Assembly: GCA_004369085.1 (NCBI GenBank)
Contig: ML210338.1
Coordinates: 7,032-58,350 of the forward strand
DNA from: Coprinopsis marcescibilis
Taxonomy: Eukaryota > Basidiomycota > Agaricomycetes > Agaricales > Psathyrellaceae
Length of the DNA: 51,319 nucleotides
Reading direction: 5' to 3'
The translations under genes were made by a program, and so were the position numbers. Below the pieces are notes generated by a model that was not told where the DNA came from, made no database searches, and was given only the letters and a program-made list of their open reading frames with translations. Numbering within the stretch: the first letter of the stretch is position 1; the number at the start of each line of letters is the position of its first letter. Positions 6,621-46,260 of the stretch are shown piece after piece.

Positions 6621-9600
6621 ACCTCCAGCCCCACGAAACAGGCTGCCGTCGTCGCCCGATCTCCAGACCATCATGCGAGTCCCTGATCCATTCCCGTTCA
6701 CATCAGCTCATCCGCTTTGTCGTCAGCCTCGCCCTAACGCAAATTTAAGCTCGAACCCAACCCTCCTTCTTTAGCACCACAACACGTCAGATTATGGAAC
6801 CACCACCCCGGATGGCGTGGTTCAACTTTCACTACTGCCATCACCCTATGCGCTAAATATACAATCTCTCTGTACAGTGTAGCCCCTTCTTACTGTTTCT
6901 AATCTATCTACTCTGGCCCTATCGTGCTCTGATCCTTTTCTGACCGTAGCCCTCCTTACTAGGGCATGTCCACTGTATTGGACAGGTCAGTTCTCCCTGT
7001 AACCCATGCTCGCTGCTAGATCTGTTCCAGATGATCATTGGACAATCCAGACGCACTCGAACTACAAGTCAACCCATGAACTACATGCATCGGCTAGAAT
7101 CTAGCGCAAATTTATGACCTTGCCATGACCCCTACGGAGGTTATACCTACTGCTGTCGGCCTCATAACTCTTTACGGTCCTCAGGGCATCAGTTGAAAAA
7201 ATAAAATGCATATCATCACATACGGTTGTCGATGCTATATTGGCATTGAATTTTGTCTGGCAACTCTGTTTTGTCATTTGTGCTGGTTCGGTCTTCTCAG
7301 GCTGAAGATAAAAACCAGAGCATTAAGTAGTGTTGGTGACTGCCACGCATGTCACCCTCGCAGATTTGAATGCTGAGCTCCATTCTTGCTACACGTGTAA
7401 ACTGCGAGGATACAACGGGAGGAGTTGCGGTGCATGCTGAAGCCTGAGGGTATGTACGATAGGTTGGGGTTCGCATTTTCGTGCCAATCAGACTACATTT
7501 CTGGGCCCCGGCCCGTAACAGGGTTGAATATTCGACTGGAACCTCGCTTTATTGAACCACCAAATCTATCCTCCGCAGCATGCTGGTCCCTGGACTCACC
7601 CACAAACTGCTCAGCATTGTTACTGTTATGAGAGAAGAAGGGTCGACTTTGGTACCTGGCTACATATCAGTTTGCTTGCATTATATTCATGGGCCTCCGC
7701 TTTTCATCACTACGCGTCTATTTAACTGATTCCGCAAAGTGGTTGAGGCCAAGAATCAAGAAACAAGAGACGGTACGATGATGTCATGCAATTATGTCCA
7801 CTGCCCCATGTCCCATCCTGATTCAAAAGTCCCATCATCCCTTGTCCACCCCAATGCACGATGCACACTGATATATAGTCTGCATCCAAATCGAATAGAC
7901 TCTTCCGCACACATGTAGTATGCATGCACAGAGCGAGGCTTGAGCGAAGCATGTTTCATCCCGCTGGATTCGGAGTGAGGGATGACGCAATCTGATAATC
8001 AGGTCTTGAAACGTGTAAGACGCCATCAGACCTGAAACACGTTGTGCTGTGTTTCGTCCCTTTCCGAGTCAGTCTGCGGATCTCTTCTCTCTCTAACTGC
8101 TCCTCCGCTCACGCGACTCTGTCGCACATTGTCTTCAATAGTCACATCGTTTATACTCCTACACTTGTATGCGCAATAAGTATAGTTCCCTTACGGTAGT
8201 GCTCAAACTCAATCAAGGAGGATTGTTGCAACTGCAAGTATGACACGGTTTGTTTATCGCCCACCACCACCTTCGTTGAAAGTAATCTCAATGAAAACTT
8301 CCTCTTATATTGTTCTCTGGGCTCCAACCCGAAAACCAAGCGCTCATTCGAGGCGTTCTCGAAGTGAACCATGCTAACCATCAGATCGATTATCATCTGA
8401 GTATGGTCGATGACGGAGACTAAGTATGGCTTGAATACCACATAGCTCCAGGATTCGCTCACTTTATTATAATTTGTCGTTATTCCGCATCAAGATTCAA
8501 CTCTTGACCTTAAGAACATTGTAAACTCAAGAGGTGTGGCCCTGATGATCACATCCGAACATGCACCAAACGCGTGGAACGGTGTTGCCTTGCAATGTGT
8601 GAGCCTTGAGGTGCCTGATTTCACTTCTGATAGAGTGGGATCCCTGAGTGCTTGGCTCGTGTGTTTCATTTTATATGTTCAAAGCTGTTCTGAGATCCAT
8701 TTTTGCACTTTGCCTCATCGTCGACACCAGCTGCTGCTCTAAACAAGATTTATCATGCAACTGCACTGCATCTTTGCTACAAGCATGCGCTGGGCTAACA
8801 ACGGTCAAGTGTGCCGTTGAGTCCGAATTCAACCATGCGGTCGCACAGCATCCTGCAGGGCGTCAATTCGTTAGACTATTTATTAGCGAGGAGGCGAATG
8901 CACTGACCACTACAAGAGCCCCTCACCAACCAACTAACCTTCTACTACTTGTAACTTGGCTGTCTTTCAAGAGATGAAAAAGCGTTTCTGCGTGTTTTTT
9001 TTTTCTTTTGCGCTCTTCCCCGACTATTCCCTTTGCTCTTTGACGTTGTCGGGTCGTTCCGTGGTACCCTTGGTATATGCGTATGCATATGTCCAGCACG
9101 CCTTGGGAGGGACTCAGACGTGGTTGTTGCAGCCTGCAGGGAGCCTGAGAGTGGCAAGAGCTTTGTTCGCATCACTCATCAGCTTAGAGTAGTCAGTCCC
9201 TCGAGATATCGAATATCCATAGAATTTCTCACGGACATTGGAATCTCGATTCATTCATGATCACTTACGCTGTGATACATTAGTGGTTCAAAGCCACGCC
9301 GAATCGCTGTACGTGTCAGCTGAGGCCTCTTAATGAATCCATAGCACCTCTTCTTGTGTTTACTGGAGCTTCTGCCCTGCTTCAGAGTCTGTGAGTGGGA
9401 TCCTCATCATCACTTCAACTAATTCGCGCTGAATTTGAATATGCTACGAGAGCAGCACTGCCATTGATTCGGATCAGTCGCCGATTCAGCCATTGGTAAG
9501 CCTATCTTCGGAGCTGATCGACCGCTGATCGCCATTGGCCTGCGCCCCTGCACCAGAACTCAGGCCGCTCGAAAGTTACCGCTGGACAGAAACACAGTCC

Positions 9601-30150: not shown

Positions 30151-31329
30151 CTACTCATACTGTTTGATCTCGTCCCCAAAGTACTTTTCGATCAGCATAT
30201 CAACGGTAGGCTCTATGTAAACTCGAATCTGGCCGGTGGATGACGCATTCACTTTACAAGAAGTGCAAACGACGTTGGCGTTGTGCAACGCGTACTGTCG
30301 GCACTGATCTCGGACGCAGATGATGGAGCTCCAGCCCAGGACCAGCTCGGACCCAGGGGTTCCCCCACCGTACGTGAACGTGAGATCGGTGATGGCACTC
30401 CCAATCCCACAGTACCGGCAGTTCTGGCTTGTGGTTTTGTATAACGGCTCGGTGGTCTTGCATGAGGCGCAGCGAATGGTCTGGAATCTCAGCCATTGAA
30501 CCCCATTGCCCTCTGCGCAGTGGTGCGGCCGCTTGGCATCATGCTCGCGTATCGCGAATATGTGTGCCGCACAGTCCCATCCGACTAGCGCGCCCAGATC
30601 GTCAACTTCGAGGGGAGACTTCTGCACGAGTGCTTTAATCCCTTCCTTGAACCATCCGCCAACACGGTACTCCTTCGCCAGTTGGAGCTTCTCCATCGCG
30701 GACATCGCGAGGTCCGTCTTTGACAAGCATTCGATTGCATGATTCCTAAGCTGTTCACGTCGAGTACACCGTCAGTAACACATCGCAGAACCCCAGTTCC
30801 AATAAACATGGCTACATACCTTGTCCATCTTCCAAATCGTCGTCAACTTCAAGACGCTCATCCACTCTTCCTTCTTTAGATCGAGCTTGATGCCTTCTTT
30901 CGCAATGAACATGCTGGGTCTACAAGCACTCCCTCAGTTCTCGAAGTCACAACACACAACACATCGACGAAGACGCACATCGGGTACATCACCTTGAGCA
31001 ACGACTCGAAATCCACCTTCTTCAAATCGGGAAGGTCGATGGGGTGTGATTTGTCCCGTCCAGCTTCGAGCTCTGCCGTCCCGCTGGGTAGCTGGAACGC
31101 ATCAGTAAAGACTAAATCAGATGCGGCTGTGAATCCACTTCGAGGGACGCAAAATAGTTCGTCCTCGACCTAATCATGCAGTAAGAGATCATCGATGACC
31201 GAATCGATTGCCGTCAGTACGGGCGCGGGCAGGATAAGCTTGATTACGAACCTTGAACCAGATAGGCTCCCAACAGAAAAGGTTGTTGAACTTGGGCGGG
31301 TCTCCTCCTGGAGTTGATGCGTTATCCAT
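30151..31329 (-). CDS. BTB/POZ-domain protein with Cys-rich C-terminus, 320 aa
   Basis: Four exons (31329-31252, 31169-30979, 30913-30820, 30750-30151) join in frame. The BTB part spans roughly residues 15-100: FNNLFCWEPIWFK, VEDELFCVPRSGF, DAFQLPSGTAELEAGRDKS and FESLLKVMYPM. Helical LKKEEWMSVLKLTTIWKM follows. The last exon has a helical region, GWDCAAHIFAIREHD, then Cys pairs (CASC, CRYC, CVRDQC, CTSC) that look like zinc ribbons, ending near YFGDEIKQYE. BTB proteins of this kind form large families in Agaricomycetes; they dimerise and may act as cullin-3 adaptors. The substrate is unknown. Tandem with a close paralogue at 32102-33276. Confidence 0.82.
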
Positions 31330-32101: not shown

Positions 32102-33276
32102 TCAAGAAGACACGGACATAATATCACACTGTTTGATCTCGTCTCCAAAGTACTTATCGACCAGCTGATCAACTGTAGGCTCAATAAATACTCGAACATG
32201 GCCCATTACAGTAGCATGACAAGAGGTGCAAGCGCCGACATGCCCCCCGTGATGGGCGATCTGGGACTGGCCCCAGCACCCCGGTTTTGTGCAATGGATT
32301 GAATTTATTGCCACGACCTGCTCGGTCCCTGGGTTTCCGCCTGTGACTATTATGAACGTCCGATCGGTAGTACCTGTCTCATTCCCACTGCACAGGCAGA
32401 TCTGGCTTTCACCTGTATATAACGGTGAGGTAGTGTTGCATGCGGCGCAGCGGATTGAATGGAATCTCAGCCACTGGACCCCATTTCCATCAGTACAATG
32501 CTTCTTTGGCCGTCGGAGATCATGTTCCCGAATAGCGAATATGTGTGCCACAGAGTCCCAACCCAGTAGGAGGCCCAGTTCGTCAACTGAGGGGCTTGGT
32601 TCCTGAACGAGTGCCTTGATCCCTTCTTTAACCCATCCCTCAATGTGGTATTCCCTCGCTAGGCGAATCTTCTCGACCGGGGACATAGTGTTGTCCAGCC
32701 TCGACAAACAATCGATCGCAATATCCCTCAGCTATCCGCGTGGAGTGCATTAGTGTCATACCATGGAGCGGTGGATACATCTCATACCTTGACCATCTTC
32801 CATTTTGTCGTCAACTTCAAAACATTCATCAACTCCTCCATTCCGAGATCGAGCTTGATACCTTCTTTCGCGATGACCATATTGGTCCTACAACTCATGC
32901 TTCAGTCCGCGGATACATGAAACACATCGAAAGAAGACGTACACGGGTTGAGCAAAGATTCGAAGTCTGTCTTGCGCAGATCTGAAAGGACGATAGGATA
33001 TGTTTTGTCCCGCCCGGCTCCAACCTCTGTATTTGCAGTTCCGCTAGGTAGTTGGAACACATCGGCAAAGAATTCAGGAGTGAATCCGCTCCGAGGGACA
33101 CAAAACAGTTCGTCCTCGACCTGATCATTGAGTAGGAATACACCGATGGCCGATCGTACCGTCAGTAAGGGCATTGCAAAGGAGAGACTTCTGACACAAA
33201 CCTTGACCCAGATGGACTCCCAACAGAAAAGGTCGTTGAACTTGAGCGGGTCTACTCCTGGGGTTGCACCATCCAT
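32102..33276 (-). CDS. BTB/POZ-domain protein with Cys-rich C-terminus, 326 aa
   Basis: Exons 33276-33202, 33120-32945, 32887-32788 and 32731-32102 join in frame with the same phases as its neighbour. BTB core: FNDLFCWESIWVK, VEDELFCVPRSGF, DVFQLPSGTANTE, FESLLN. The usual LLKVMYP end of the core reads LLNP here, so one core helix is slightly shortened. The middle has MEELMNVLKLTTKWKM. The C-terminus has GWDSVAHIFAIREHD, Cys pairs (CAAC, a CLC motif, CTKPGC, CTSC) and YFGDEIKQC. Very likely a tandem duplicate of 30151-31329. It is divergently arranged (465 bases between starts) with a third BTB gene, so they may share promoter elements. Confidence 0.8.
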
Positions 33277-33740: not shown

Positions 33741-34965
33741 ATGGCCGATCCCGTTGTTGCTCCTCGTGCGGAAAATGAGTATCCATACAAGGTGAACGAG
33801 CTTTTTCGGTCAGAGCATATTTGGTTCAGGGTAGGTGATGTGTGCGACATACATTCAATGTAGACGATACCAAGAATCTGTCTTACCTAGGTCGAGGACG
33901 AGCTCTTCTGCGTCGCAAGAAATGAACTCGCAGCGTCCTCTGAGGTATTTTCGGACATGTTTCTTCTTCCGACCGCAGAAGGACTGGCGGATGGGCGTGA
34001 CAAGAGTAACGCAGTATTCCTTGAAGGCCAGAAGAAATCGGACTTTCTCGCACTGTTGAAGGTCATATACCCAACGTGAATCCTTTGTTTTATGCATGTC
34101 ATGGCTGGACTCTGGAGCTAACGCGATGTTCTCAGATTTCGCGCATTGAGGTCAAGCTCGTCATTGGAATTTAGGATTGGTCTCTCGAAAGAGGAATGGA
34201 TAGGAGTTTTAAAGCTTTCGACGATGTGGGACATGAAGGAAGTGAGTTTTATTCTGGTAGTTCACTGGTCAATGATGGATCTGGACGTGATAGGCTGATA
34301 CGCTATAGATACGCGACTTTAGCATCAAGATGCTTCAGGAACGCCACGATCTAAGCGCAGTGGATATGATTCAGCTGGCTAGGGCTTGCAGCATTGGGTC
34401 ATGGTTGAAGCAAGGTGCCGTTCGACTCGCCGAGTCGGATGAATCGATGCCACTGCAAACCCTCACGGACCTTGGTTGGGAAACTGCCGCTATCGTCCTC
34501 AGCATCAGAGACCGCTCAAGATGCTCGCCAACACGACTCACTAACACCATTCTCGCTCAATCCATCCAATGCGGACGCTGCGACAGTCCTTTCCCTCTCC
34601 TCCCGCTTGACCAGGCGAACAGCACAACCACTAAACAGTGCAAGTGCGACTATCGTATTACTCTGCGGACTGTGCTGCGGCTTAAAGGACACCCGCATGC
34701 TGGTGAAAATGGGGTTCGTATCTGTATAGACGACATTTGTTGTCTTGATACGGACCAGCGTCGATCCACAGGGCATCGGGGTCCAATTTTCTCAGGTCCA
34801 TTTACGTGTCGGCTATGCGCCTCGGTTACTACTATGGGCAGAGGTGACACCGTGCGCATAACCCCAGTGGAGAAACCTCGCCGAAGTTTCATAGAAGAGC
34901 TGGTCTCCGAACATTTTGGGGCAAAAATCGAAGATTACGACAAGAGCTTTCCCCCCAGCGTTTAA
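33741..34965 (+). CDS. BTB/POZ-domain protein with Cys-rich C-terminus, 345 aa
   Basis: Exons 33741-33830, 33891-34075, 34136-34241 and 34309-34965 join in frame. The BTB core reads FRSEHIWFR, VEDELFCVARNE, EVFSDMFLLPTAEG, DFLALLKVIYP. Then come LSKEEWIGVLKLSTMWDM and a longer last exon with LGWETAAIVLSIRDR, Cys pairs (CGRCDS, CKCD, CRLC) and SEHFGAKIEDYDK near the end. It is more divergent than the two minus-strand copies but has the same intron positions. The gene ends 180 bases from the convergent Cys-cluster gene. Confidence 0.8.
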
Positions 34966-35145: not shown

Positions 35146-36572
35146 CTACGCTTTCCCATTCATTAAGTCGACGAGTGTATCAGTTGAGGCGGTGCGACGG
35201 TGTCCAACAGGCCCAATGGTGCTACCGCCAACGTTTCCAGTTCCCTGCAACTTGCCTGCCCCACCGCACACAGAAAGAATTCCCTCTAACGCCCTGACTT
35301 CCTGCAAGGTTATTTCTTTGCACTTCAAGATATTGTCGGTGTTTCTCCTAATCTCCTTCAACTCGTCCAAGATTCCCTTCAACACGGAAACAAGACCTTG
35401 TCCATCGCTGGCATCCAATTCGTAGTCGCAGGATCCACTATCCACCTGGTCCGTGCCGATATCGATATCCTTGTTAAATGAATTAGCGACTTCAAGGCTG
35501 TCGCCGGCATATCGGGGAGAGTCGGTGTCGACCGTATCAACCATATCGTCTTGCCCCTCCTTCAAGCCTCCAACTGGAGATTCGCTTCTGTCATTTCCAT
35601 CCAATGATTGCGTTGCATGGAGTACAGTACGCTCCAAGACGTCAACCAGATTGTCATCCTCGAAAATTCTCGTCACCTGCGACAGCATCTCAGCCTCTCA
35701 GGTCTAATTTCTATGAGCGAATCATGATCGGTGTGGACTTACCTCGTGAAAAGTATCCACTCCTCGCTCAAGGTGTTCAAATCTGACTTTCATCGCGACA
35801 CCGTCCTCCGTCTCTACCCGTTGCAAGCTGGTCTTATCGATCAACTGAACAATTGTTTCAGCAAAGACGTTCATGTGTCTTGATACTGGAGCTGGCGTAC
35901 CTGCTCTGTGACATGCGGTCCCATCCCGTCACTCCGCTCTTCAACCTTCGTCTCGACCGATTCCGTCATCGTCTGATCTTTCTGCCCCTTACCCCGATCT
36001 CTACTCATTCTCAACTCACATTTTCTACGAGCCGCCCGACATAAGAAGCAGCATGTGCCCGTCGCTTCGCGCGCCGCTCCATCATGCTTTCGAAAAACCG
36101 GCTCTTTCTGCCTCTGACAGCGCTTCCCTAGACCCACACATTGGGTGCAGGGATACGCCGACCAGGAGTAGCCCGGCTGTCGAATGCATGGCCCTGCAGC
36201 GCGAAGTGGCGACACCGGCTGCCCCACATATCGACGAGGTATCAACACGGCAGACCTCATTTCCAATCGTTCAGCCTCACAGACTGTTTCCGCCGCGCTG
36301 CTCAGTGCTCATCCACTCTTGGAACGTTTCACAGACGCACCTGCACTTGAGAACTCGGTATCGCTTTCGCTGTCCTCGGCAGCGACTTTCTTGCCCTCAG
36401 TTTCCGCAGCACCGCCGTTTCTGGACGCTTTGCCTGCACCACGTTCCTTAGCAGGCCTCTCTTCCTCGTCACTACCGTCATCTACCCTCCTATTAACTCG
36501 CCTCCGTCTCTTGTTCGACCGGGGAGTGCCAGAGTCTGCAGCCAGATTTCGTTTGCCAGGTGTGGTGACCAT
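35146..36572 (-). CDS. Cys-cluster (Zn2Cys6-like) protein with coiled-coil tail
   Basis: About four exons: near 36572-36330, 36265-35890, 35840-35746 and 35694-35146; the inner limits of the first two are uncertain. The N-terminus is basic and acidic by turns (RSNKRRRRVNRR, then DDGSDEEE), as in nuclear proteins. Two Cys triads follow, CTQCVGLGKRC and CFLCRAARRKC, each C-x2-C-x6-C with about 18 residues between them. This resembles the fungal Zn2Cys6 binuclear cluster seen in many Agaricomycete proteins. Exon 3 ends FEHLERGVDTFHE; exon 4 contains a likely coiled coil (LKGILDELKEIRRNTDNI). Perhaps a DNA-binding regulator; that is inference. Confidence 0.6.
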
Positions 36573-36599
36573 GGAGGAGATGGGTGATAAGAGGAAAGG

Positions 36600-36824
36600 T
36601 CAGAGCCCATTTATGGTCTGCGCAGCAACTGGTTCATGACATGTCCAATCAAGTTCAAACTCCGGTGAATAGAAGGTTCTGCGAGACCAAATATTACGTC
36701 TAGTGGGGTCCGTGCTCTCACGCCGGGCCTTGAGATGTTTTATACGCGGTACATTATCGACACCAAGCCATCGAGCGATTTTATAACTGACGTAGTAAGT
36801 AGTGATCAAATCCGAGTCCGTCAT
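36600..36824 (-). CDS. Small hypothetical ORF, 74 aa
   Basis: An ATG-started frame upstream of the Cys-cluster gene on the same strand, beginning MTDSDLITTYYVSYKIARWL. The composition is protein-like but matches no family that I know. It could be a separate small gene, a 5' exon, or chance. Confidence 0.2.
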   Translation of the reverse strand: MTDSDLITTYYVSYKIARWLGVDNVPRIKHLKARRESTDPTRRNIWSRRTFYSPEFELDWTCHEPVAAQTINGL

Positions 36825-36829
36825 CGTCT

Positions 36830-37370
36830 TAGCGCCGTTTGGTCAAATCTGGACGAGGCGCATCAATACGTCATATGATGATTGGGCTCGGGATATCCCA
36901 ACTGGGAGGGCCCATTGCCCAACGCTATTAGTCCCCAGACGGTAGAAATATTGCGGCTCGAGCGCCACCCTGAACTCATATATAGCGTGTGCGCAAAGCG
37001 TGGAAGCCTTGGCTATTCCTCGGGCTTCACAATTTGAACTATACGGTCACTTCCGACCCCCCAGAAACACCCCCTATGTTGCCCATCAAACGGAAAATCG
37101 GGTGGCTTAGTGCCAAGTGGTTAAATTCAGTTTGTAACACGGAAAGTCGGAAGTCGATATACACGTAGCAATGCGCACAGCTATATTAATACTTTAAAAT
37201 GTGCTCTATTTCCGCGAGTGGACTCACACAATCACCCCCGTTTACAGTGAACGGTTACTATCAGTACCTATTACGTTCGACTCGTCCTGGCCGATTGCTC
37301 ATTCTCGATTACTGGAGCAAATCTCGCGACAATCGAATTCACTTGGAGCCTAATCCACTTTCGATATCAC
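36830..37370. other. Intergenic, upstream of precursor A
   Basis: Promoter region of the plus-strand precursor gene; no frame of interest. Confidence 0.4.
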
Positions 37371-37371
37371 A

Positions 37372-38375
37372 ATGCCCAACGTCTCAATCGCGCTCCTCCT
37401 CTTCTCGATTTGCGCACCTCAACTCACCAGCGCATTCCAACTCGGCCAAAGCTCGGACAATTTAGACACTCGTTCAGTGTCACTCGGGCGCTTGGAGGAA
37501 CTTGAAGCTCGTGTATTTACAAATATGTGCGTACACCTATAATTTATCCCCGTGTGCCTTGTCTTCCATCGTAACGCACCATCCAATCCAACGCATTCTG
37601 ACGTCATCGCGAACATATCACTGTCCAATGCAAAACACACCACTGCAGCCTTACTCAGTTCACGCGCGACATCGATGGCGATGAGCTCGAAGCTCGATAC
37701 ATTAATTCCGACGCCCAAGAACTCGACGCTCGATCTATCAAGAGGTTTTTCGGGAAAATTGGTGGAATGTACGTGTGCTAGGGTACATAAGTTCAGAGCC
37801 AAAGGATTCATAGGCTTACGCAGACATAGCGACGAAATTGACACTCGAAGTATTGACCAGTTGGACGACATACTCGAAGCCAGATTTGTTCCTCTATTGT
37901 TGTGAGTGCCCTTTCCTTCAAGTCGTCCGGTTCACGAACGAGTGGAATATCGATCAATAGCGGCGTAGCCCGCAAGATAGGAAAGGCAGTTTTGGGAGGT
38001 CGCGATCTGGATACCGACAGCATTCTCGAAGCTCGATCCACTGAGCTCTCCGAGTTCGAAAGTAGAGCACTGGCCAAAGCGTAAGTCAATCTTTTCAGCT
38101 TTACATTCACCATTCCCTGGGGCTGTCTTATGGCACTTGCACCGGCGGTATTCCATATTCACGAGAACAATATAGACTAACCGCACTCCCTTACTGTTTA
38201 TAGCCTCAGGCGCGGGATCACCTGGGCTAATTCCAGACGCAATCAGTTCGAAAACGGCCCCGAATTTCTCCACCGGGAGTTTGCCGAAGCAGAAGTGGAG
38301 GCCATAGTACGGGATATGTTGGATAAGTCGTACCTTGAGGTGCGGGAGGAGGGCTTGCTTGACGAGCTTGACTAA
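37372..38375 (+). CDS. Secreted exon-repeat precursor A, 223 aa
   Basis: Five exons (37372-37526, 37649-37768, 37797-37901, 37961-38080, 38204-38375), all joined by phase-2 introns, give one open frame. Residues 1-20 form a signal peptide (MPNVSIALLLFSIC...LTSA). Each later exon starts with the second half of a Gly/Lys/hydrophobic segment, passes an acidic spacer and ends near a D/E-LEAR-like motif (EELEAR, QELDAR, DDILEAR). Dibasic sites include IKR in exon 2, LRR in exon 3 and LRR, SRR in exon 5. The C-terminus EEGLLDELD matches precursors B and C. Probably secreted and cut by Kex2-type proteases into several peptides. It is the most diverged of the three. Confidence 0.7.
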
Positions 38376-38695
38376 GATCTGTCCGCGACCTCAGGCATCC
38401 CGAAGCCGAGGCTAATTATGAACCCCCGAGTCCAGAACATACATTTTGATGATCGCTGTTGATGTTGTAGATTTGAGCGAGGGATGAACCATGTAGATTG
38501 ATCCAAGGCCTAGGTAGGGGATTGGTATGCAGTGTGAAAAGCGCTGTGCATTCTTGAGGTCATGGAACACACGATCCTATTGTTCTACTGCAACAGAAGC
38601 GATGGGTGAGCAGCGTTGCAATGAGAAGACAGCGCGTACACGAACCTATCTACATCCCAGATCCATTCATTCCATCACTCGGGAATACACCCCTT

Positions 38696-39498
38696 CTAGT
38701 TCACAGCGATATCGATTGGGAACGGTGAGATCCCAGTTGCGTTGGTGATGAGGGGCACCGCAGACCGCCCTCGCTCAGATGACGTATGAGTTATCATCGT
38801 TTGCAGTGCCTTGGTTAGTGTGTTGGCGAGGCTTGCTTGGAAAGTATGAAAGTCTGTGAACAGTCCATATTTAGCTTCTGTGGCGAAAATATCGCAAAAA
38901 GAAGCAGTCGCGCACCATTATCGTTCCGCTGTCGTATGTCTACATTGATGACCCTGTGACAAACGCGGTCAGTACCCTCTTTATTCGAACGATGAGGGAG
39001 ATGTACATACCATTGTTCCCAGGGAACAAGTTCCTCTCCGACGGTGAACCACGACTTCTTCTCAACCTTTTGAGAAAAGGTGACGACTATCTCTGGGAAT
39101 GTCAGGACACTGGCGTTTATCGAAGTGCAAAGACTAACCTGACCACGTCTTCGACCGTTATCAACCCCTCTCCAGAACCCATCCACCTTATCCTTCACCA
39201 GTCGTTCCATTTCTGGATCCACCACGCCAGGCTGGAGAGATGGGGGAATGCTGTTAAGCCTCGAAAAGGTACGGAGTAACTGCACATACCAAAGTCACAT
39301 CTAGAACTTCAAATGTCGTTGGCTTGATGGTCCCAAAGAGGCGGTGGAAGAGTATTGAGTGTAAAACGCCATGCAACACGTCTTTTGTCGTGGAACGGTC
39401 CAACGTCTGCGAATGGTTGGAGTCGTTAGTGGGGTGTACGACGCTGTTCAATGACCACTTACAAGGTCTATGGTAATCGTGTGATATGCATTTGCCAT
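38696..39498 (-). CDS. atg101: Autophagy-related protein 101 (ATG101), 173 aa
   Basis: Six exons (39498-39463, 39406-39290, 39231-39139, 39090-39011, 38953-38916, 38853-38696) join in frame. Family motifs run the whole length: TLDRSTTKDVLHGVLHSILF, HRLFGTIKP, FEVLDVTLPGVVDPE, LVKDKVDGFW, VTFSQK, GEELVPWEQWVINVDIRQ, and a C-terminal helix with ISPFPIDI. ATG101 has a HORMA fold and pairs with Atg13 in the Atg1/ULK initiation complex in the cytoplasm. It is found in most fungi apart from budding yeasts. The gene converges with precursor A and diverges from the hydroxylase gene, so its place between them is probably incidental. Confidence 0.9.
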
Positions 39499-39499
39499 A

Positions 39500-40320
39500 A
39501 CTTTAGAGAGTTGATATCATTTGTGAAGGATGGCGCGGCGACGAATAGGTTGTGGTATCAGTTCCACACGCAGCGAGGGTGACACTGGCGTCACGAACTC
39601 GGAGCCTTTGCAATACTCTCGCACGCATTGACCACAGGTACACAGCCACTCAAGCGTCCACCGCCACCGCGCCAGACATCGTGGGCGCTTAAAAAGGGAG
39701 GAGATCCAAAATGCTGCAGGTTTCCACGCAACGAGGACAGGTACCCGAGTCCATGAAAAGCTGATGGACGTTCTGTTGATTTAACGTCGTATGTACTCTG
39801 GACCGGGGAGCGTTTATAAGCGCGAGACTGGCTTGGAGCCGCCCTTCGGTCGTTGTTTTTCATGCAACGAACCTCGATTTGCACCCCAGTTTTGGCTAAA
39901 GAGGAGGAACGCTGTCTACATTCACTGTCTCTAAATGCGGGATATCACTAATCGCGTTGCCCAGCTCAAAGTACGGGAATATAAACTGCTGACGAGTGCA
40001 TTCACTGGCCACCCCGCCCGATCAGCGGTTTAAAGCCGGCCCGTGCTTCAGTCAGCAATAGGGATCTAGAGCCTAATATGTGCTCAATGAGAGATGTATG
40101 TCAAAGTATCACGCCGACCCCAGGACCAAGTTCACCGAAACTCGGCCTACTACACATACATGCTGAGCAATTTGAATACACCTTGGCCGCAAGTGGACCA
40201 GCCCAGACCAATTGTTGCTCTTGACTGGATGAACTATATAAGCTGCATGTGGACACCATCCAATTTCAGACTCGAGCAACTCACATTTCCTTCATTAATC
40301 AATTCCACACTCTACCGCAC
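39500..40320. other. Intergenic, divergent promoter region
   Basis: About 820 bases between the starts of atg101 and the hydroxylase gene. A 97-residue minus-strand frame here has no recognisable features. Confidence 0.5.
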
Positions 40321-40324
40321 CAAT

Positions 40325-41276
40325 ATGGCCATTGCCGACGTCCCCAGCACTGTTTCCAATCTCACCTACTTTATTCCACCGGTAGACGGTCGACCGGCAT
40401 ACCAATACGTCAACGCTGACCCAGCAACCGGCAAGGCTGCACACAACTACGATCGCAAACAGTACCCCGTAGAAGTCGAAAATATCCGGGGACAGGAGGA
40501 CCGCTATCTCCTGAATGAAGCAGGCTTCCAGTTTCTCCACTACCCAACTAAGCACACATTGACCTTCGACGACGACGAGAGAATCAAGAGAGAGTATTAC
40601 CCCGATAGCGTCGAGCTGCTGAAGAACTTCACGGGAGCCAGCCACGTTGTCGTTTTCGACCACAGTACGTCGATATGTGTGCTATACCCGATCGATTCAT
40701 TAAACATGGCCTATTCATAGCTGTCCGCCGCCATCGCCCCGACGAGATCGATGACGGCCCTGCGAAGCGTAAACCACTTCCGCAAGTTCACATAGATCAG
40801 ACGCCCAAATCTGTCCGCGACCGAGCTCACAGACACATCGGGCCCAACGCCGAGACCCTGCTCAAGAAGCGGTGCCAACTCGTAAACGTCTGGCGCCCAA
40901 TTAATCATGCTGCATGGGATGTCCCCCTCGCTTGCTGCGACTACCGCAGCGTCGATCCCAACGACCCTCTACCTATAACTCTGATCTACCCCGACATGGA
41001 AGGGGAGTTCTACGGTGTGGCGTACAGCCCTGAGCACAGGTGGAAATACATGAGGGGTATGACACCTGATGAGGCGCTACTCATTAAATGGTAAGCAGTG
41101 GGTCTGTGGTGTGAATATAGATAGCTGATCAAGACCGGATACACAGCTACGACTCGATACAAGATGGGAGCGTCGCTTTGTGGACGCCACATACAGCATT
41201 CAAGGATCCATCCGCGCCTAAGGATGCTCCCTTTAGGGAATCCATCGAGCTTCGAGCATTCCTATTCTACGATTGA
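40325..41276 (+). CDS. CmcJ/asaB-like hydroxylase/desaturase, 279 aa
   Basis: Three exons (40325-40664, 40721-41090, 41147-41276) join in frame. The family signature is clear: VSNLTYFIPP at the N-terminus, VENIRGQEDRY, VVVFDHTVRRH across the first junction, VHIDQTP, LVNVWRPI, PLACCDYRSVDP, HRWKYMRGMTPDEALLIKC, then TPHTAFKDPSAPKDAPFRES and ELRAFLFYD at the end. Members include the cephamycin CmcJ protein and the aspergillic-acid enzyme AsaB. They are soluble, probably 2-oxoglutarate-type oxygenases; HIDQT and the later HTAF and RESIE residues fit metal and co-substrate binding. It sits between precursors A and B, so a tailoring role is possible but unproved. Confidence 0.85.
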
Positions 41277-41690
41277 TCAGCTGTCGTGCCTACAGTTATC
41301 AAAGAACATCCAACCTTGTTCATTCTCCGATCTATCAATAGCTTTGCTTGTAATTGTCGTCCATATTTACATTGTTTCTCCTAATAAAAGCATATCATGA
41401 TTGCGAAGAGAGCTTATTTATACTTCCATCTTTCATCGCCACATTTTACACACTATGTCGTGAACAGCCAAAGGTAACTTTTACGAGAGTTTCTGCGCAC
41501 ATCTCGGATGGTGAACTCCGCCTACCTCCTTAAATCCCTGCTCAGTGAGCTCCACAGCGGGAACATCGAGCTGTACTTGAATGGCACACATAGACTCTGA
41601 GTAGATACATGGTAAAGCATAATTCTTCTGAGCATCATTATGTATTTATTGATGGAATTGCCTGCCAACGCTGCAGCTGTGGTTTCTCAA

Positions 41691-42815
41691 TTAATCCAAC
41701 TCGTCGAGAGTTGCACCATCGTAAATACCCCTGAAACCAACATCCTCGTAGTCTCGTACTTGCAGCGAGACCAGTTCATCGAACACAAAATCGCGAACGA
41801 GGAGGTCCAGCTCATCGTTTTCCAAATCCCTCAGGTCGAATTCTTGCCCATCAAGATCCCGCTTTCTTTTCTTGAAAGCACTGCGAAGGAGGGAGATTCC
41901 TTTAAACCTAGTGACAGAGAACAGTAAGTATGCAGTTCATCATTTGTCCGTACATCAAAGACACCAACACTAGACCAAAAATTCGGGCCTCAAGTTCCGG
42001 TTCTTGAAGCTCCCTGGCGGCGATTTCATCGCCTAGCTCTTCTCTTCGGAAGCCAAAGAACGACTTAATACCGCCCAGGCTACGACAGGAGTTGAAATTA
42101 GCTGAGAATCTACTCCATGATCAAAGTCTACAAACATGTTTTTGATGATTCGAGCTTCGAGCTCATCGTACTCTCGGAGCTCTCGGGAACTCAGCTGGTC
42201 CAGCCCATCGTCAAACTCCCTGCTCTCGATGGCATCGAATCTAATATCTATCAACAAGGCGTGCCATGGATGTAAAAGGGACACATACAGTTTCTCGAAG
42301 AGCCGTACTTCGAGTTCGTCGTACCCTTGCATATGGCGGGTGATCAAGTCCTCGGCATCGCCTTCGATGTCTCTACCGAAACCAAAGAACTTCCCGATTC
42401 CGCTGAAGCTGAGGTGCATTGTGGTAAGTATGAAGCTTTGAGTCGCGCGGCGATTACTTACATCTTGCCGATAATTCGGGCCTCAAGCTCTTCGGTAGGA
42501 CCATTGCGGGTGGCCACAGCGTTGCCTCTATCAGTGTTCCGGGCAGTCAGGTCCTCAGCTTCAGCTTCCATGTCTCTACCAAACCCAAAGAATTTTCCGA
42601 TTCCTCCAAGGCTGGGGTGTACTGTCAGTGAATCGTTTGAAGATTTGTATGTTCAATACCTACATCTTTCCGATGATCCGAACCTCGAGTTCTTCAGTGG
42701 GTGCATTTCGGATGGCCACCTCGCCTTGATCCAGAGGGGCTCCTTTCACAATTGGCAGTGCGCCTGACGCAAGGAGAACAACGACAGCCAGGGTTGAGTA
42801 GGATGCTTTAACCAT
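41691..42815 (-). CDS. Secreted exon-repeat precursor B, 284 aa
   Basis: Six exons (42815-42664, 42611-42462, 42408-42289, 42240-42136, 42079-41969, 41907-41691), all phase 2, give one frame. A signal peptide (MVKASYSTLAVVVLLASGAL) is followed by repeats ending in EELEVR, EELEAR or DELEAR and then IIGKI-like half segments; the next exon supplies (L/F)(G/S)GI(G/K). Two repeats end in GFGRD rather than the dibasic GFRRD of gene C, so only some keep a Kex2-type site; the fifth has FRRE and the last exon KKRKRD. Exon 4 has lost the glycine-rich half. The C-terminus DGATLDELD matches C. Start and signal are nearly identical to C, so this is a duplicated, diverged sister. Confidence 0.75.
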
Positions 42816-42879
42816 TGTAGTAGGTGGATGGTGGTTGGATGAGCGTGTGAGATGAATGTATGTGTTTGATGTTGATTGG

Positions 42880-42976
42880 AGACTTGCAACGAGCTCAACC
42901 AGGAGCGTTAGTTGTGAAAGTCGTAGGACGAGACCAGCTGAGTAAATTTGGTTGTTTTCAAGTGGTTTATATATGT
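42880..42976 (-). promoter_or_regulatory. Conserved upstream region of precursor B
   Basis: A stretch of about 65 bases (42880-42945) containing, on the plus strand, ACTTGCAACGAGCTC, ACCAGGAGC and TAGTTGTGAAAGT is conserved with 44683-44746 upstream of precursor C. A TATA-like TTATATATG lies just beyond (about 42968-42976), and AAAACTCAGAG follows in both genes. The pair probably shares regulation. Confidence 0.55.
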
Positions 42977-42989
42977 ATCCCTCCTCAGG

Positions 42990-43500
42990 TTAAAACTCAG
43001 AGAATAGACCAACAGTTCATCTAGATCTATCATCTAGATAGCAATCTTGTAGCTGGACTGAGTTTTGGCTACTGAACAATCCCGGGGACCGCGCCTCATA
43101 CCTTCGGCGGACCCACAGATAGATGAATACTCAAAGAAGCACCTGGAATATACACCTGTGTGATTTAGCCTGGATGATAAGGCGGTCCGAACGGAGTCGG
43201 AGACGCGAGCGCTACGATGAGTGTGGACGTTGCCGACAGGATTATAGCCATGGGCAAACTTACCAGCGCTCAGCAAACTCAACCGAGCGGGTTGTACTTG
43301 GCCTCCGGCATTCCGGACCCCGACGCCAAGCCCTATTGATGATGGCGCATCATAACAGCTGAACCAAAGAGTCGTGGCGGCCCGCCTCACTGCCCTCACA
43401 GAACGAGAATCGCGAAGAACACTCTTCAACATTGCAATATAGTATCGTGGATTGAGGAATTGTTATATACGGGATAAGTTAAACCTGTTATAATTAAGCT
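42990..43500. other. Spacer between precursor genes B and C
   Basis: A 132-residue minus-strand frame (43432-43034) and a short plus-strand one show no family features. Probably 3' flank of C and upstream region of B. Confidence 0.4.
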
Positions 43501-43505
43501 AACGT

Positions 43506-44597
43506 TTAGTCAAGCTCATCCATGGATGCTCCGTCGAACATATCCCTCGCGTCAACATCTTCGTAGTCCCGTGCTTCCAGCGTATCCATATCAGCCAAGA
43601 GATCTCGGACAATAATATCGAGCTCTGCGTCGGTGAAGTCGCGAGTGGACAGTCCCTGGGCTTCGACGTCCCTCCTGAAACCGAGGAACCTCTTGACACC
43701 ACCGAAGCTGAAGAGGCAAGCCAGCGGTTAATGTATGTTGGACCAAGTCACCAGGCTAGTACGTACATCTTGCCAATGAAACGAGCCTCGAGTTCACTGT
43801 AGTCTTCGAAGTCCCTGGCGTCGAGTTCATCGCCGAACTCGCTTCTGCGGAAGCCAAGGAAGCCTTTGACACCCCTGAAACTACGAGTGAGGAACAACGG
43901 GTCAGCAACGCTCCAGGGTGCGCCACGCGGTCGACTTACATCTTTCCGATGAATCGGGCCTCAAGCTGGTCGAATCCTTCAAGGTCACGGGCGTTGAGAT
44001 CTTCGGCGCTGAGATCCCGTCGGAAACCTAGGACGCCCCTGACACCTCGGAAGCTGCAAAGTTGGTGTCACTAAAGTTGCTTGGATCAGCAACTGAATAG
44101 CTTACATCCTTCCAATAAATCGGGCTTCAAGCTCATCGAGACCTTCAAGGTCACGAACCTCGAGATCTTGGCCGCTGAGGTCCCGTCGGAAACCCAAGAC
44201 GCCCCTGACACCTCGGAAGCTGCAAAGTTGGTGTCAACTAAGGTTGCCTGGATCAGCATCTGAATAACTCACATCTTGCCGATGAATCGGCTTTCGAGCT
44301 CGGTGAACTCTTGGACGTCCCGTGCGCTGACGTTGACTGGCTCGTTGATATCCCGCCTGAAACCGAGGAAGCGCTTGACACCACCGAAGCTGAAGGAGGG
44401 GTGCTGTGTCAGCCAAAAGCGTTTAATCTACCGCGCAGTCTGTCTTACATCTTGCCAATGAATCGGGCATCGAGCTCTTGGGTGGTGGCACCACGGGCAA
44501 TCAAGCTGTTCTCGTTGCTCAAAGGGGCGGCATTGACGAGAGCGCCAGAGGCAACGAGGGCAACGACAGCAACGGTGGAGTATGAAATCTTGGCCAT
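43506..44597 (-). CDS. Secreted exon-repeat precursor C, 269 aa
   Basis: Six exons (44597-44449, 44389-44273, 44219-44106, 44053-43940, 43880-43767, 43707-43506), all phase-2 introns; inner exons are 117, 114, 114 and 114 bases, one 38-39-residue repeat each. A signal peptide (MAKISYSTVAVVALVASGAL) precedes the repeats. Each exon begins F(R/G)GV(R/K), runs to LGFRR, passes an acidic spacer and ends (E/Q)LEARFIGKI or close. Dibasic RR follows every LGF, and VKR occurs in the first and last repeats. The tail DGASMDELD is shared with B. The design fits a Kex2-processed repeat protein (KEP class). Product and activity are unknown. Confidence 0.8.
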
Positions 44598-44682
44598 TGT
44601 ATTGAGTTTGTAGGGTGGGAGAGGAAGAAAAGAAGTAGTTGTGTGTAGAGAGAGAGGAGGTGAGAGTAGATTGATTTGTGCG

Positions 44683-44780
44683 GAGACTTGCAACAAGCTC
44701 GACCAGGAGCTGTAGTTGTGAAAGTGGGAGGATGAGACCAGCTGAAGAACCAGAGAGGATTTCCACCACCCTTTTATAAG
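44683..44780 (-). promoter_or_regulatory. Conserved upstream region of precursor C
   Basis: Counterpart of 42880-42976: ACTTGCAACAAGCTC, ACCAGGAGC and TAGTTGTGAAAGT on the plus strand, a TATA-like CTTTTATAAG near 44771-44780 (minus-strand reading), then AAAACTCAGAG. Coding-independent conservation suggests a shared 5' leader or core promoter. Confidence 0.55.
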
Positions 44781-44789
44781 CTTCCGTCT

Positions 44790-46260
44790 ATGGATTAAAA
44801 CTCAGAGTTTCGAAACGAGTAACTTGGATCGAGTGAGTTGATCTAACGGTTGCCCCTTACTGCATCGGCAAAGTTCCGGCAAAGATTTATCCTTGAGACT
44901 GGCAACAACGTGTCGCCAAAAAAGTGCAGTGAAGGTCTCCGCGAGACCCGACGTTACGTTGCGACGCACTTCATGGGCCTCTTTGTTCTTATCATTCAAT
45001 TTACTCCGTATGCAAGAGTTCACCTTTGGACCCAGGTATTTACAATGTTTCTGCAACCGAAATCATACCCTCCCGTGACTCTCGCCAGGAAGTACTGGTA
45101 TACTGTCGATATTATCACAGGTTTGAAGTCACCGCCTGAAGACCAAGTTGATCAATTTAATTTATCGCGTCGCTTGCGCTCAATGTGCCGCAACATTTGC
45201 GGATATCTAGCATGAGGTATAGCTAAGGTAGTTTCAAAACGAGAATGGCCAAGCCAACGACCTGGAATCTGTCAGCGCCGCAATGATGAAAAAGCAATGT
45301 TCAAGTGCGTCACGTCCGGAGATAAGCTAATTTGGTTAAAAACGGATGGCCGGACTCAGCGCAATCTCACAGCTCCTGTCACAGCCTCTGCCTCAACTTT
45401 GCATCAACTTTGCATCAACGATCAATTTTGCGGTTGCCAAAGTACCGAGCACAGGGTAGCAAGGGCTTGAGGGAAGGGTTTCTAGGATTTGAGATATATC
45501 ACTCTCACTCCCTAGTAATTTGAGAAAAGAGGGATCGTATGAACACATAATATGAGTGAAACTCCGCACTTTCGTCTCCTTGGTATCGTCGCAGGTGTTG
45601 TGCTGGATGCTGTGATGCTTTGGAGATACTCGGCCATCCGCAGTGGCTGCCCGTGGTGCCCGCCAATGCACAGTACGTTACAATTCTCACAACTTGTGGG
45701 CACAAATCCCCGACTTCCATGGGATTGAATAAGAGCCGGTGTCCTCGCCCTTTGAGAATACTTATCGACAGCATAAAAGCGGCAGGGATGGAACTGCATC
45801 TGTGAGGTTATGGAGGAAAAAATCTGATCAAACCAGATCCATCAGAATCAAGAGGTGCTCCAGAAGCGCTGCGCAATCTATTAATGGCCATCTGTGTCGT
45901 CGCATATACCTTCGCCGAGCGCCCAAATTCGAATCATTGTTCGAGTGCAACAGCTTGATCCCGTCCCGATGCTATCTCCACATCATTTGCTCGTACACAG
46001 ATAAGGCCAGCCAAGCCATCCTTGCCTGATACATGAACCTTCGTCCTCTTTGAATTCTTTGAGTCCAGACTGTTTGATAGCACTTGCAAGGTTGTTTTCA
46101 TTCATCCAATGCAAGGTGTTACCTTAAAGTCTGACGCCATCGAATCTTTGATACTTGCTCTCGTGATAAGTATACTATTACTATGTGCATGTTTCACCCA
46201 TCGCTGGTTGTGCTGACCCGCCCCACAAGCACAGGATCTGTGTACCAGGTGAGTTAGTAT
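44790..46260. other. Mostly intergenic
   Basis: Several overlapping short frames on both strands, none recognisable; see the small ORF at 45552. Confidence 0.4.
45552..45728 (+). CDS. Possible small membrane ORF, 58 aa
   Basis: ATG-started frame with one hydrophobic stretch (LLGIVAGVVLDAVML) followed by CPWCPP. Too short for certainty; it could be an exon of something larger or chance. Confidence 0.15.
   Translation: MSETPHFRLLGIVAGVVLDAVMLWRYSAIRSGCPWCPPMHSTLQFSQLVGTNPRLPWD

Follow-up and report, generated by a model that had tools for sequence, protein, structure and literature searches.

Multi-peptide precursors described in fungi and frogs

Linear, ribosomally made helical antimicrobial peptides are classic in animals. 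In fungi, to our knowledge, such peptides are scarcely known, and the defence peptides described there are mostly disulphide-rich or non-ribosomal. Three genes, here called A, B, and C, lie in a 51,319-nucleotide (nt) stretch of DNA from Coprinopsis marcescibilis, a mushroom of the Psathyrellaceae in the order Agaricales (the window; positions 7,032 to 58,350 of contig ML210338.1, assembly GCA_004369085.1) and were compared with the closest described systems: the fungal Kex2-processed repeat proteins (KEPs), the candidalysin precursor Ece1, the antimicrobial peptide (AMP) genes of pipid frogs, and the dikaritins. The reading we favour, with moderate confidence, is that A, B, and C encode secreted, KEP-like multi-peptide precursors that would be cut largely at single arginines and would release linear amphipathic helices active on membranes.

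KEPs resemble the predicted products of A, B, and C in being secreted fungal precursors with several cores and basic cut sites, as set out in the excerpted text of Le Marquer 2019, Umemura 2020, and Vogt 2022. The likeness extends to XP dipeptides of the STE13 type in relatives of A, B, and C and to the presence of Kex2- and STE13-type genes in the C. marcescibilis genome. The N-side core borders of the A/B/C family differ in being single arginines, each within an L-[E/D]-x-R motif, and one relative (P0011) has neither KR nor RR. The cores also differ in being predicted cationic helices set between acidic spacers, and no description of such a core was seen in the excerpted text of the KEP papers. 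Candida Ece1, compared by description, is likewise a fungal polyprotein and the source of a linear, membrane-damaging peptide (PMC9769878, PMC7329392, both in excerpt), but only one of its eight Kex2 products is the lytic peptide, which does not recur (PMC7329392, same excerpt), whereas here the cationic core repeats. Among pipid frogs, tandem exons encode the peptides in the magainin and caerulein genes of Xenopus laevis, and the AMP region of Silurana is split over two exons (PMC3731216, in the portion available), comparable to the B and C cores that lie across splice junctions. The frog precursors differ in being vertebrate genes derived from a cholecystokinin hormone gene (PMC3731216, same portion). 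By this analogy the likeness is one of convergence, with no homology claimed, and the A/B/C gene architecture would be a clean case of it.

By the same analogy, the repeated peptides are probably cut apart like frog-skin antibiotics, and the helices, once released, probably target membranes in the manner of frog-skin peptides and candidalysin. A broader proposal, to which we give slightly less than even weight, is that these genes belong to a mushroom counterpart of the frog-skin arsenal. This would be a large ribosomal family with one conserved scaffold, made up of a signal peptide, acidic spacers that bear lone arginines, and a DELD tail, on which linear cationic helices of widely differing kinds are carried. 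Agaricomycete Kex2-type proteases would cut these precursors mainly at single arginines, and the A/B/C branch would have been copied by exon-plus-intron duplication, each of its peptides being assembled across a junction. If the favoured reading is right, mushrooms hold a large set of untried linear helical peptides, and a plain, testable function would follow for Kex2-type repeat precursors.

Cores, borders, and relatives

Gene models were spliced by hand from the window DNA and gave predicted precursors of 214 amino acids for A (37372..38375, +), 284 for B (41691..42815, −), and 269 for C (43506..44597, −), each open to its stop codon. Judged by reading, all three have a hydrophobic, signal-like N terminus. 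The repeat of C consists of five 17-mers of the form FIGKIFxGVxxFLGFRR, in the order FIGKIFGGVKRFLGFRR, FIGKIFRGVRGVLGFRR, FIGRIFRGVRGVLGFRR, FIGKIFRGVKGFLGFRR, and FIGKIFGGVKRFLGFRR, each with a net charge of +5, and these alternate with acidic spacers whose single arginines stand in an L-[E/D]-x-R motif. The cores of B are IIGKILGGIGKFFGFGR, IIGKIFSGIGKFFGFGR, IIKNILGGIKSFFGFRR, and the diverged IFGLVFKGISLLRSAFKKRKR, and A is a divergent member with one clear cationic segment, FVPLLFGVARKIGKAVLGGR (+4). The alternation of acidic spacers with cationic amphipathic cores is clear in B and C and weak in A. A first-pass annotation of this DNA had marked a recurring ELEAR-like motif; the repeated unit of interest is instead the cationic 17-mer that spans each exon junction, and LEAR, being the single-Arg site that precedes each core, is therefore not the product.

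In the proposed mechanism, the precursor would enter the secretory pathway with its acidic spacers offsetting the charge of the cores. Kex2-type proteases would cleave each core's N side behind the Arg of L-[E/D]-x-R and its C side behind the R or RR of GF-R/RR, STE13 would take off XP in the relatives that have it, and a carboxypeptidase such as KEX1 would trim the basic tail to leave linear 15- to 16-mers such as FIGKIFRGVKGFLGF. On membranes, the 15- to 16-mers would fold as amphipathic helices and permeabilise competing microbes or small predators.

Relatives were collected by protein searches over 5.8 billion proteins, which gave 36 distinct proteins (P0001 onward), gene A among them. The searches yielded 14 at an E value of ≤0.01, 28 at ≤0.001 (those 14 included), and a further set of 12, four of which had already been found. 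The named sources, which span several genera of Agaricales, are Coprinopsis cinerea, Coprinellus aureogranulatus, Coprinellus micaceus, Ephemerocybe angulata, Candolleomyces eurysporus, Cyclocybe aegerita, Flammula alnicola, and Pleurotus eryngii. Members from the last four genera have different cores on a similar plan, the Candolleomyces and Flammula matches being weak (E values of 5.1e-7 and 1.5e-4). Many relatives appear to derive from transcripts, since their open frames are long and their contigs measure only about 1 kb. Among the 35 besides A, the DELD end is present in 20, a close variant in 6, and another ending in 9, some of which look truncated. A hidden Markov model (HMM) built from 18 relatives, with the window excluded, scored C at 249.4, B at 121.1, and A at 30.9 bits; the best scores of shuffled sequences, in which the first 22 residues were left unchanged, were 14.3 (C, n = 300), 13.4 (B, n = 300), and 5.7 (A, n = 293). 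In a single BLAST comparison, A matched B with an E value of 3e-08. The earlier suggestion of a secreted multi-peptide precursor family is supported, with kin in other Agaricomycetes. Separately, the Cyclocybe record bears the UniRef label 'Antimicrobial peptide'.

Borders were compared across the family by a regular expression, which matched 90 cores (net charge +3 to +6) in 22/31 proteins. The matches are not independent, as many are copies that hardly differ, and none of those listed contains Cys. X-Pro directly follows the border Arg in 75 of the 90; the 15 without it come from B, C, P0001, and P0002. According to the excerpted sources, XP or XA after a Kex2 site is the STE13 signature (PMC6339444; PMC9769878), and X-Pro would accordingly be read as marking the mature N terminus of the relatives' cores. 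Without the XP, these cores start with FIGK, FLGK, FFGK, IFGK, or GFGK, which is where the B and C cores start as well. Their C-side ends are GFRR, GFGR, GFR, or FGR, as a rule before an acidic residue. P0011 contains neither KR nor RR despite its five cores, and KK is found within those cores. The proposed cleavage after single Arg has a parallel in C. cinerea KEPs expressed in Pichia, whose products were apparently cut there (Vogt et al., PMC9769878, in excerpt).

Composition and amphipathicity were compared with shuffled sequences. Cationic, hydrophobic 15-mers free of D, E, and P number 5 in C (shuffle mean, 0.68; maximum, 4; 5000 shuffles), 4 in B (mean, 0.39; maximum, 4), and 2 in A (mean, 0.34; maximum, 3); A alone is unremarkable in this respect because the shuffle maximum of 3 exceeds its 2. 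Charge variance along the chain, which was taken as the test of charge alternation in place of charge-window maxima, is above shuffles (P < 0.05) in 31/38 proteins. The mean hydrophobic moment of 37 distinct cores, 0.392, is higher than that of all 500 shuffled sets (mean, 0.299; maximum, 0.389). At the best angle between 85 and 115 degrees, P values below 0.05 were obtained for 3/9 untrimmed and 6/9 trimmed cores from the window and for 10/17 trimmed cores from relatives, so that 16/26 trimmed cores fall below 0.05 when pooled. An AlphaFold model of P0001 places helix across most of each of its four cores, with low confidence (mean pLDDT, 46.6).

Constraint on the cores was estimated from pN and pS, the uncorrected proportions of nonsynonymous and synonymous differences over short stretches. 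Core pN/pS is 0.17 for the 10 pairs within C, 0.27 for the 3 pairs within B, and 0.37 for the 15 pairs that join a B core to a C core. When exons 3, 4, and 5 of C are compared with one another, core pN is 0.00, 0.11, and 0.08, versus spacer pN of 0.15, 0.38, and 0.37. By these proportions, the cores of B and C are under purifying selection.

Several observations weigh against the release of membrane-active helices. The peptides of A, B, and C are predicted here from sequence. In the excerpted text of Vogt et al. (PMC9769878), synthetic KEP peptides were without antibacterial activity when tested and six kep knockouts were without phenotype; those KEPs may or may not belong to the A/B/C family. 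Charge alternation is not significant for A or B taken singly, and charge-window maxima are significant in 3/38 proteins, C not being one of them. The moments of single cores at a fixed angle of 100 degrees have a median shuffle P of 0.31, with 19% of the 37 below 0.05. No residue of the P0001 model reaches pLDDT 70, and a PDB sequence search with one core, and then with 16 cores, gave no match. Finally, an internal KR (GGVKRFLGF) in C cores 1 and 5 (exons 2 and 6) is a possible Kex2 site at which the peptide would be split, and internal KR is found also in 3/4 matched cores of C. cinerea P0012 and in some cores of P0016 to P0018.

Rather than acting on membranes, the released peptides could be hormone- or pheromone-like signals, an account we consider fairly unlikely. 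The FIGKIF..FLGF core is kept across several genera, and KEP-derived alpha-pheromones take the same Kex2/STE13 route (PMC9769878, in excerpt), both of which would suit a signal. Nevertheless, cores vary widely on a similar scaffold, beginning with FIGKIF in C and with GFGKFLKGAFKVGK in P0006 and taking the form RFGSFFKKVAKVGGRVAGSLFF in P0031 and FRLGNIIKKVGGIARKAAG.. in P0032; chemical defence therefore fits better than one receptor. The strong positive charge of the cores, and the up to five similar, mostly non-identical cores of C, likewise argue against signalling. A further account, that the peptides coat the hyphal surface as the amphipathic, assembling Rep1 peptides of Ustilago maydis do, would be in keeping with amphipathic cores on a repeat precursor in a filamentous basidiomycete. 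Rep1 peptides form amyloid-like fibrils (PMC9769878, in excerpt), whereas the present cores are short, strongly cationic (+3 to +6), and helical in their predicted state (a low-confidence model), and we regard a surface coat as quite improbable.

Repeat gain, the wider scaffold, and family assignment

All 14 introns of A, B, and C are of the GT..AG type and all 14 are in phase 2, and the C termini agree in (L/M)DELD (LLDELD in A, TLDELD in B, SMDELD in C), as the first-pass annotation had reported for both features. The intron lies four residues after the Arg in 12/14 cases, both exceptions being in A. Because the junction falls after FIGK, four residues past the Arg, each core of B and C is put together across a splice junction; exon and peptide borders differ in the three genes. 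The expectation of one repeat per exon holds exactly in C and for most of B, but the core of B exon 4 has lost its charge and the pattern is weak in A.

Exon duplication had been proposed as the route to more repeats, and C provides support. Its exons 3 and 4 are identical at 97/114 positions and its introns 2 and 3 at 47/53, versus at most 35 in 200 shuffles; of the other nine C intron pairs, two beat the shuffles by one match and seven do not. From these identities we conclude that one exon-plus-intron unit of C was copied as a block. The best P0001 match is repeat 2 for C repeats 2 and 3 alike; C repeats 4 and 5 pair with P0001 repeats 3 and 4, and C repeat 1 has no clear partner. A single exon-plus-intron duplication after the split from the P0001 lineage would be the simplest account. 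Any copied unit stays in frame because the internal exons have one and the same phase at both ends; a duplicated unit would thus be spliced in frame, with a complete core restored at every junction.

Queried with A, B, and C, the genome yielded no additional close copy, and queries with distant relatives led to more precursor-like frames on two other contigs, C213 and C43. The C213 precursor (36446-37127; E value, 8.7e-15) has two long repeats ending in SLGFRE within one open frame and the tail IDDLD. The exon-per-repeat arrangement is therefore limited to A, B, and C and does not extend to the wider scaffold, since the C213 precursor holds two repeats in one exon. On C43, a precursor-like frame near 68 kb (E value, 3.6e-9) ends in ILDELD. 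Two further places on this contig are alike in spacers and tail only: one at 56.6-57.3 kb (E values, 0.12-0.15; tail IEELD) and one at ∼42.4-43.3 kb (E value, 0.84), a large single open frame with several near-identical Arg-rich repeats (REPRRGARGGRSRTPTGVSDSAGRFVGGLLGGALNQRD) and the tail EFDELD. A match on C82 (E value, 5e-7) gave no frame that passed the filter, and matches on C142, C168, and C219 were dropped because no precursor-like frame was found on reading. As for processing genes, the Kex2-type P_proprotein domain gave four matches at three places in the genome, two of them with internal stops, as introns would give, and STE13-type DPPIV_N matches lie at one place.

The C213 precursor also bears on whether any peptide is released. 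An unprocessed secreted acidic repeat protein, in which the recurrence of LEAR is a mere footprint of exon duplication, would explain the homologous intron positions and the lack of dibasic sites at most core borders of A and B, and release itself is read here from the sequence. Against it, the repeats of the C213 precursor are not separated by exons and have the same Arg pattern, XP stands right after the border Arg in most of the matched cores (75/90), and core pN is lower than spacer pN in 3/3 C exon pairs. We therefore attach little probability to it and retain the processed precursor as the preferred reading.

The KEP class itself, to which the three genes had been provisionally assigned, fits them in part. 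In a rough KR/RR screen requiring ≥3 similar fragments, C passes and A and B fail, as do 17 of the 38 proteins overall (21 pass). The published KEP pipeline also tries KK, with thresholds other than those of the rough screen (PMC6339444, in excerpt). A screen confined to KR/RR would miss part of the family, because 17/38 proteins fail it and P0011 has five cores with no KR or RR.

The dikaritins (ustiloxin type), which the first-pass annotation had offered as a parallel, resemble A, B, and C, with their signal-like N termini, in having a signal peptide and repeated cores. They differ in that no UstYa (DUF3328) was found, among the matches listed, on C193, the 58-kb contig carrying A, B, and C, and in that A and B yield no similar fragments on KR/RR cutting; the dikaritin-like reading was not upheld. 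That the precursors feed a modified cyclic peptide by this route, with a tailoring enzyme encoded nearby, is extremely improbable. The genome does have at least 8 UstYa matches, on three contigs (C72, C280, and C59), and an open reading frame (ORF) of no assigned family lies between A and B. These are set against the absence of UstYa on C193 among the listed matches, the long, linear-looking cores, and the finding that two pieces of the intervening ORF have no Pfam match.

No Pfam family was matched by A, B, or C at its cut-off. Pfam gave 0 families at an E value of ≤1 for A and B, and CEP44 for C at 22.7 bits, below its cut-off of 27. Among relatives, Clavanin (PF05452), a tunicate family, matched P0002 (E value, 0.0013; 19.3 bits) and P0008 (E value, 0.00093; 19.8 bits) weakly; the resemblance is one of composition only, because the scores are under the gathering cut-off of 21. 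Matches above cut-off were DUF502 on P0016 (34.3 versus 23.8) and, on P0025, DUF5969 (34.3 versus 25) and Antimicrobial_3 (25.3 versus 25); P0025 has no charge alternation (P = 0.745) and is not counted as a secure member. The Pfam matches on family members, mostly under cut-off, were rejected as unrelated names that look like chance in repetitive, biased sequence. Precomputed labels were also not used: PF16838 (P0003; 26.9 versus 27 in our own scan), PF04367 (P0016 to P0018), PF15291 (P0016), and PF26627 (P0020 and P0022).

Six core strings had no occurrence among 5.39 million papers searched. Literature searches on KEP, candidalysin, mushroom, and antimicrobial peptides returned three KEP papers, reviews, and unrelated subjects, among which no description of these cores was recognised, and searches on basidiomycete cytolytic or polyprotein peptides, Cyclocybe, and C. 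marcescibilis returned nothing recognised as the A/B/C family. The earlier statement that no described family with the ELEAR-like motif was known agrees with these searches and the Pfam results. No printed description of the family was found within this scope, outside which lie the supplementary tables of the KEP papers, which may well list members.

Gene models and flanking sequence

The start positions given in the first-pass annotation, 37372 (+) for A and 44597 (−) for C, are correct. A has five exons: exon 1 (37372..37526), which encodes the predicted signal peptide, a spacer, and the first half-core, VFTN; exon 2 (37649..37768); exon 3 (37824..37901); exon 4 (37961..38080); and exon 5 (38204..38375). 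It corresponds to the deposited protein FA15DRAFT_759996 (relative P0029; 99% identity). The sole difference was the end of intron 4, at 38203 in the deposited protein, 6 nt upstream of the hand model, which had exon 5 start at 38210; the deposited acceptor was adopted. With it, A introns 1 and 4 are 122 and 123 nt long, and the remaining 12 of the 14 introns are 48 to 61 nt.

B has six exons on the minus strand. Exon 1 (42664..42815) encodes the predicted signal peptide and the first half-core and is followed by exon 2 (42462..42611), exon 3 (42289..42408), exon 4 (42136..42240), whose core is now without positive charge (LFEKLFDAIESR; net charge −1), exon 5 (41969..42079), and exon 6 (41691..41907), with the final core and an acidic tail. 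The six exons of C, on the same strand, are exon 1 (44449..44597; predicted signal peptide, spacer, and half-core FIGK), exon 2 (44273..44389), the duplicate pair of exon 3 (44106..44219) and exon 4 (43940..44053), exon 5 (43767..43880), and exon 6 (43506..43707; final core and acidic tail). Intron 3 (44054..44105) and intron 2 (44220-44272) have almost the same sequence.

For B and C, the splice junctions are predictions from the genomic DNA. P0001 is an uninterrupted ORF on a contig of 937 nt, and its four cores run through the positions of the C junctions; since C has five cores and P0001 four, one C junction is without a counterpart there. No deposited C. marcescibilis protein was returned for B or C when ∼8000 candidates that share most words, of similar length only, were scored, and both may therefore be unannotated genes.

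The upstream regions of B and C (42813-43010 and 44595-44815, −) share CTCTGAGTTTTAA, a TATA-like stretch, and then a 64-nt block, which lies at 42878..42941 (−) for B and at 44682..44745 (−) for C and is 89% identical between them. A genome search with this block returned only these two places, and B and C likely share promoter and leader. A bacterial promoter scan was set aside as not meaningful for a fungus.

The description of the locus as a three-gene cluster stands in that A, B, and C are real, but at least one unrelated-looking ORF (∼40325-41276, +) separates A from B and C. This ORF, the one whose two pieces lack a Pfam match, has at least three exons and may resemble CmcJ or GA4-desaturase-like proteins. 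Elsewhere in the window, three long ORFs with similar text, at 30154-30771 (−), 32105-32731 (−), and 34309-34962 (+), form an apparent local family with the motifs LA..Y..GGW.KEGIKALVQ, LA..Y..EGWVKEGIKALVQ, and LARACSIGSWLKQGAVRLA.

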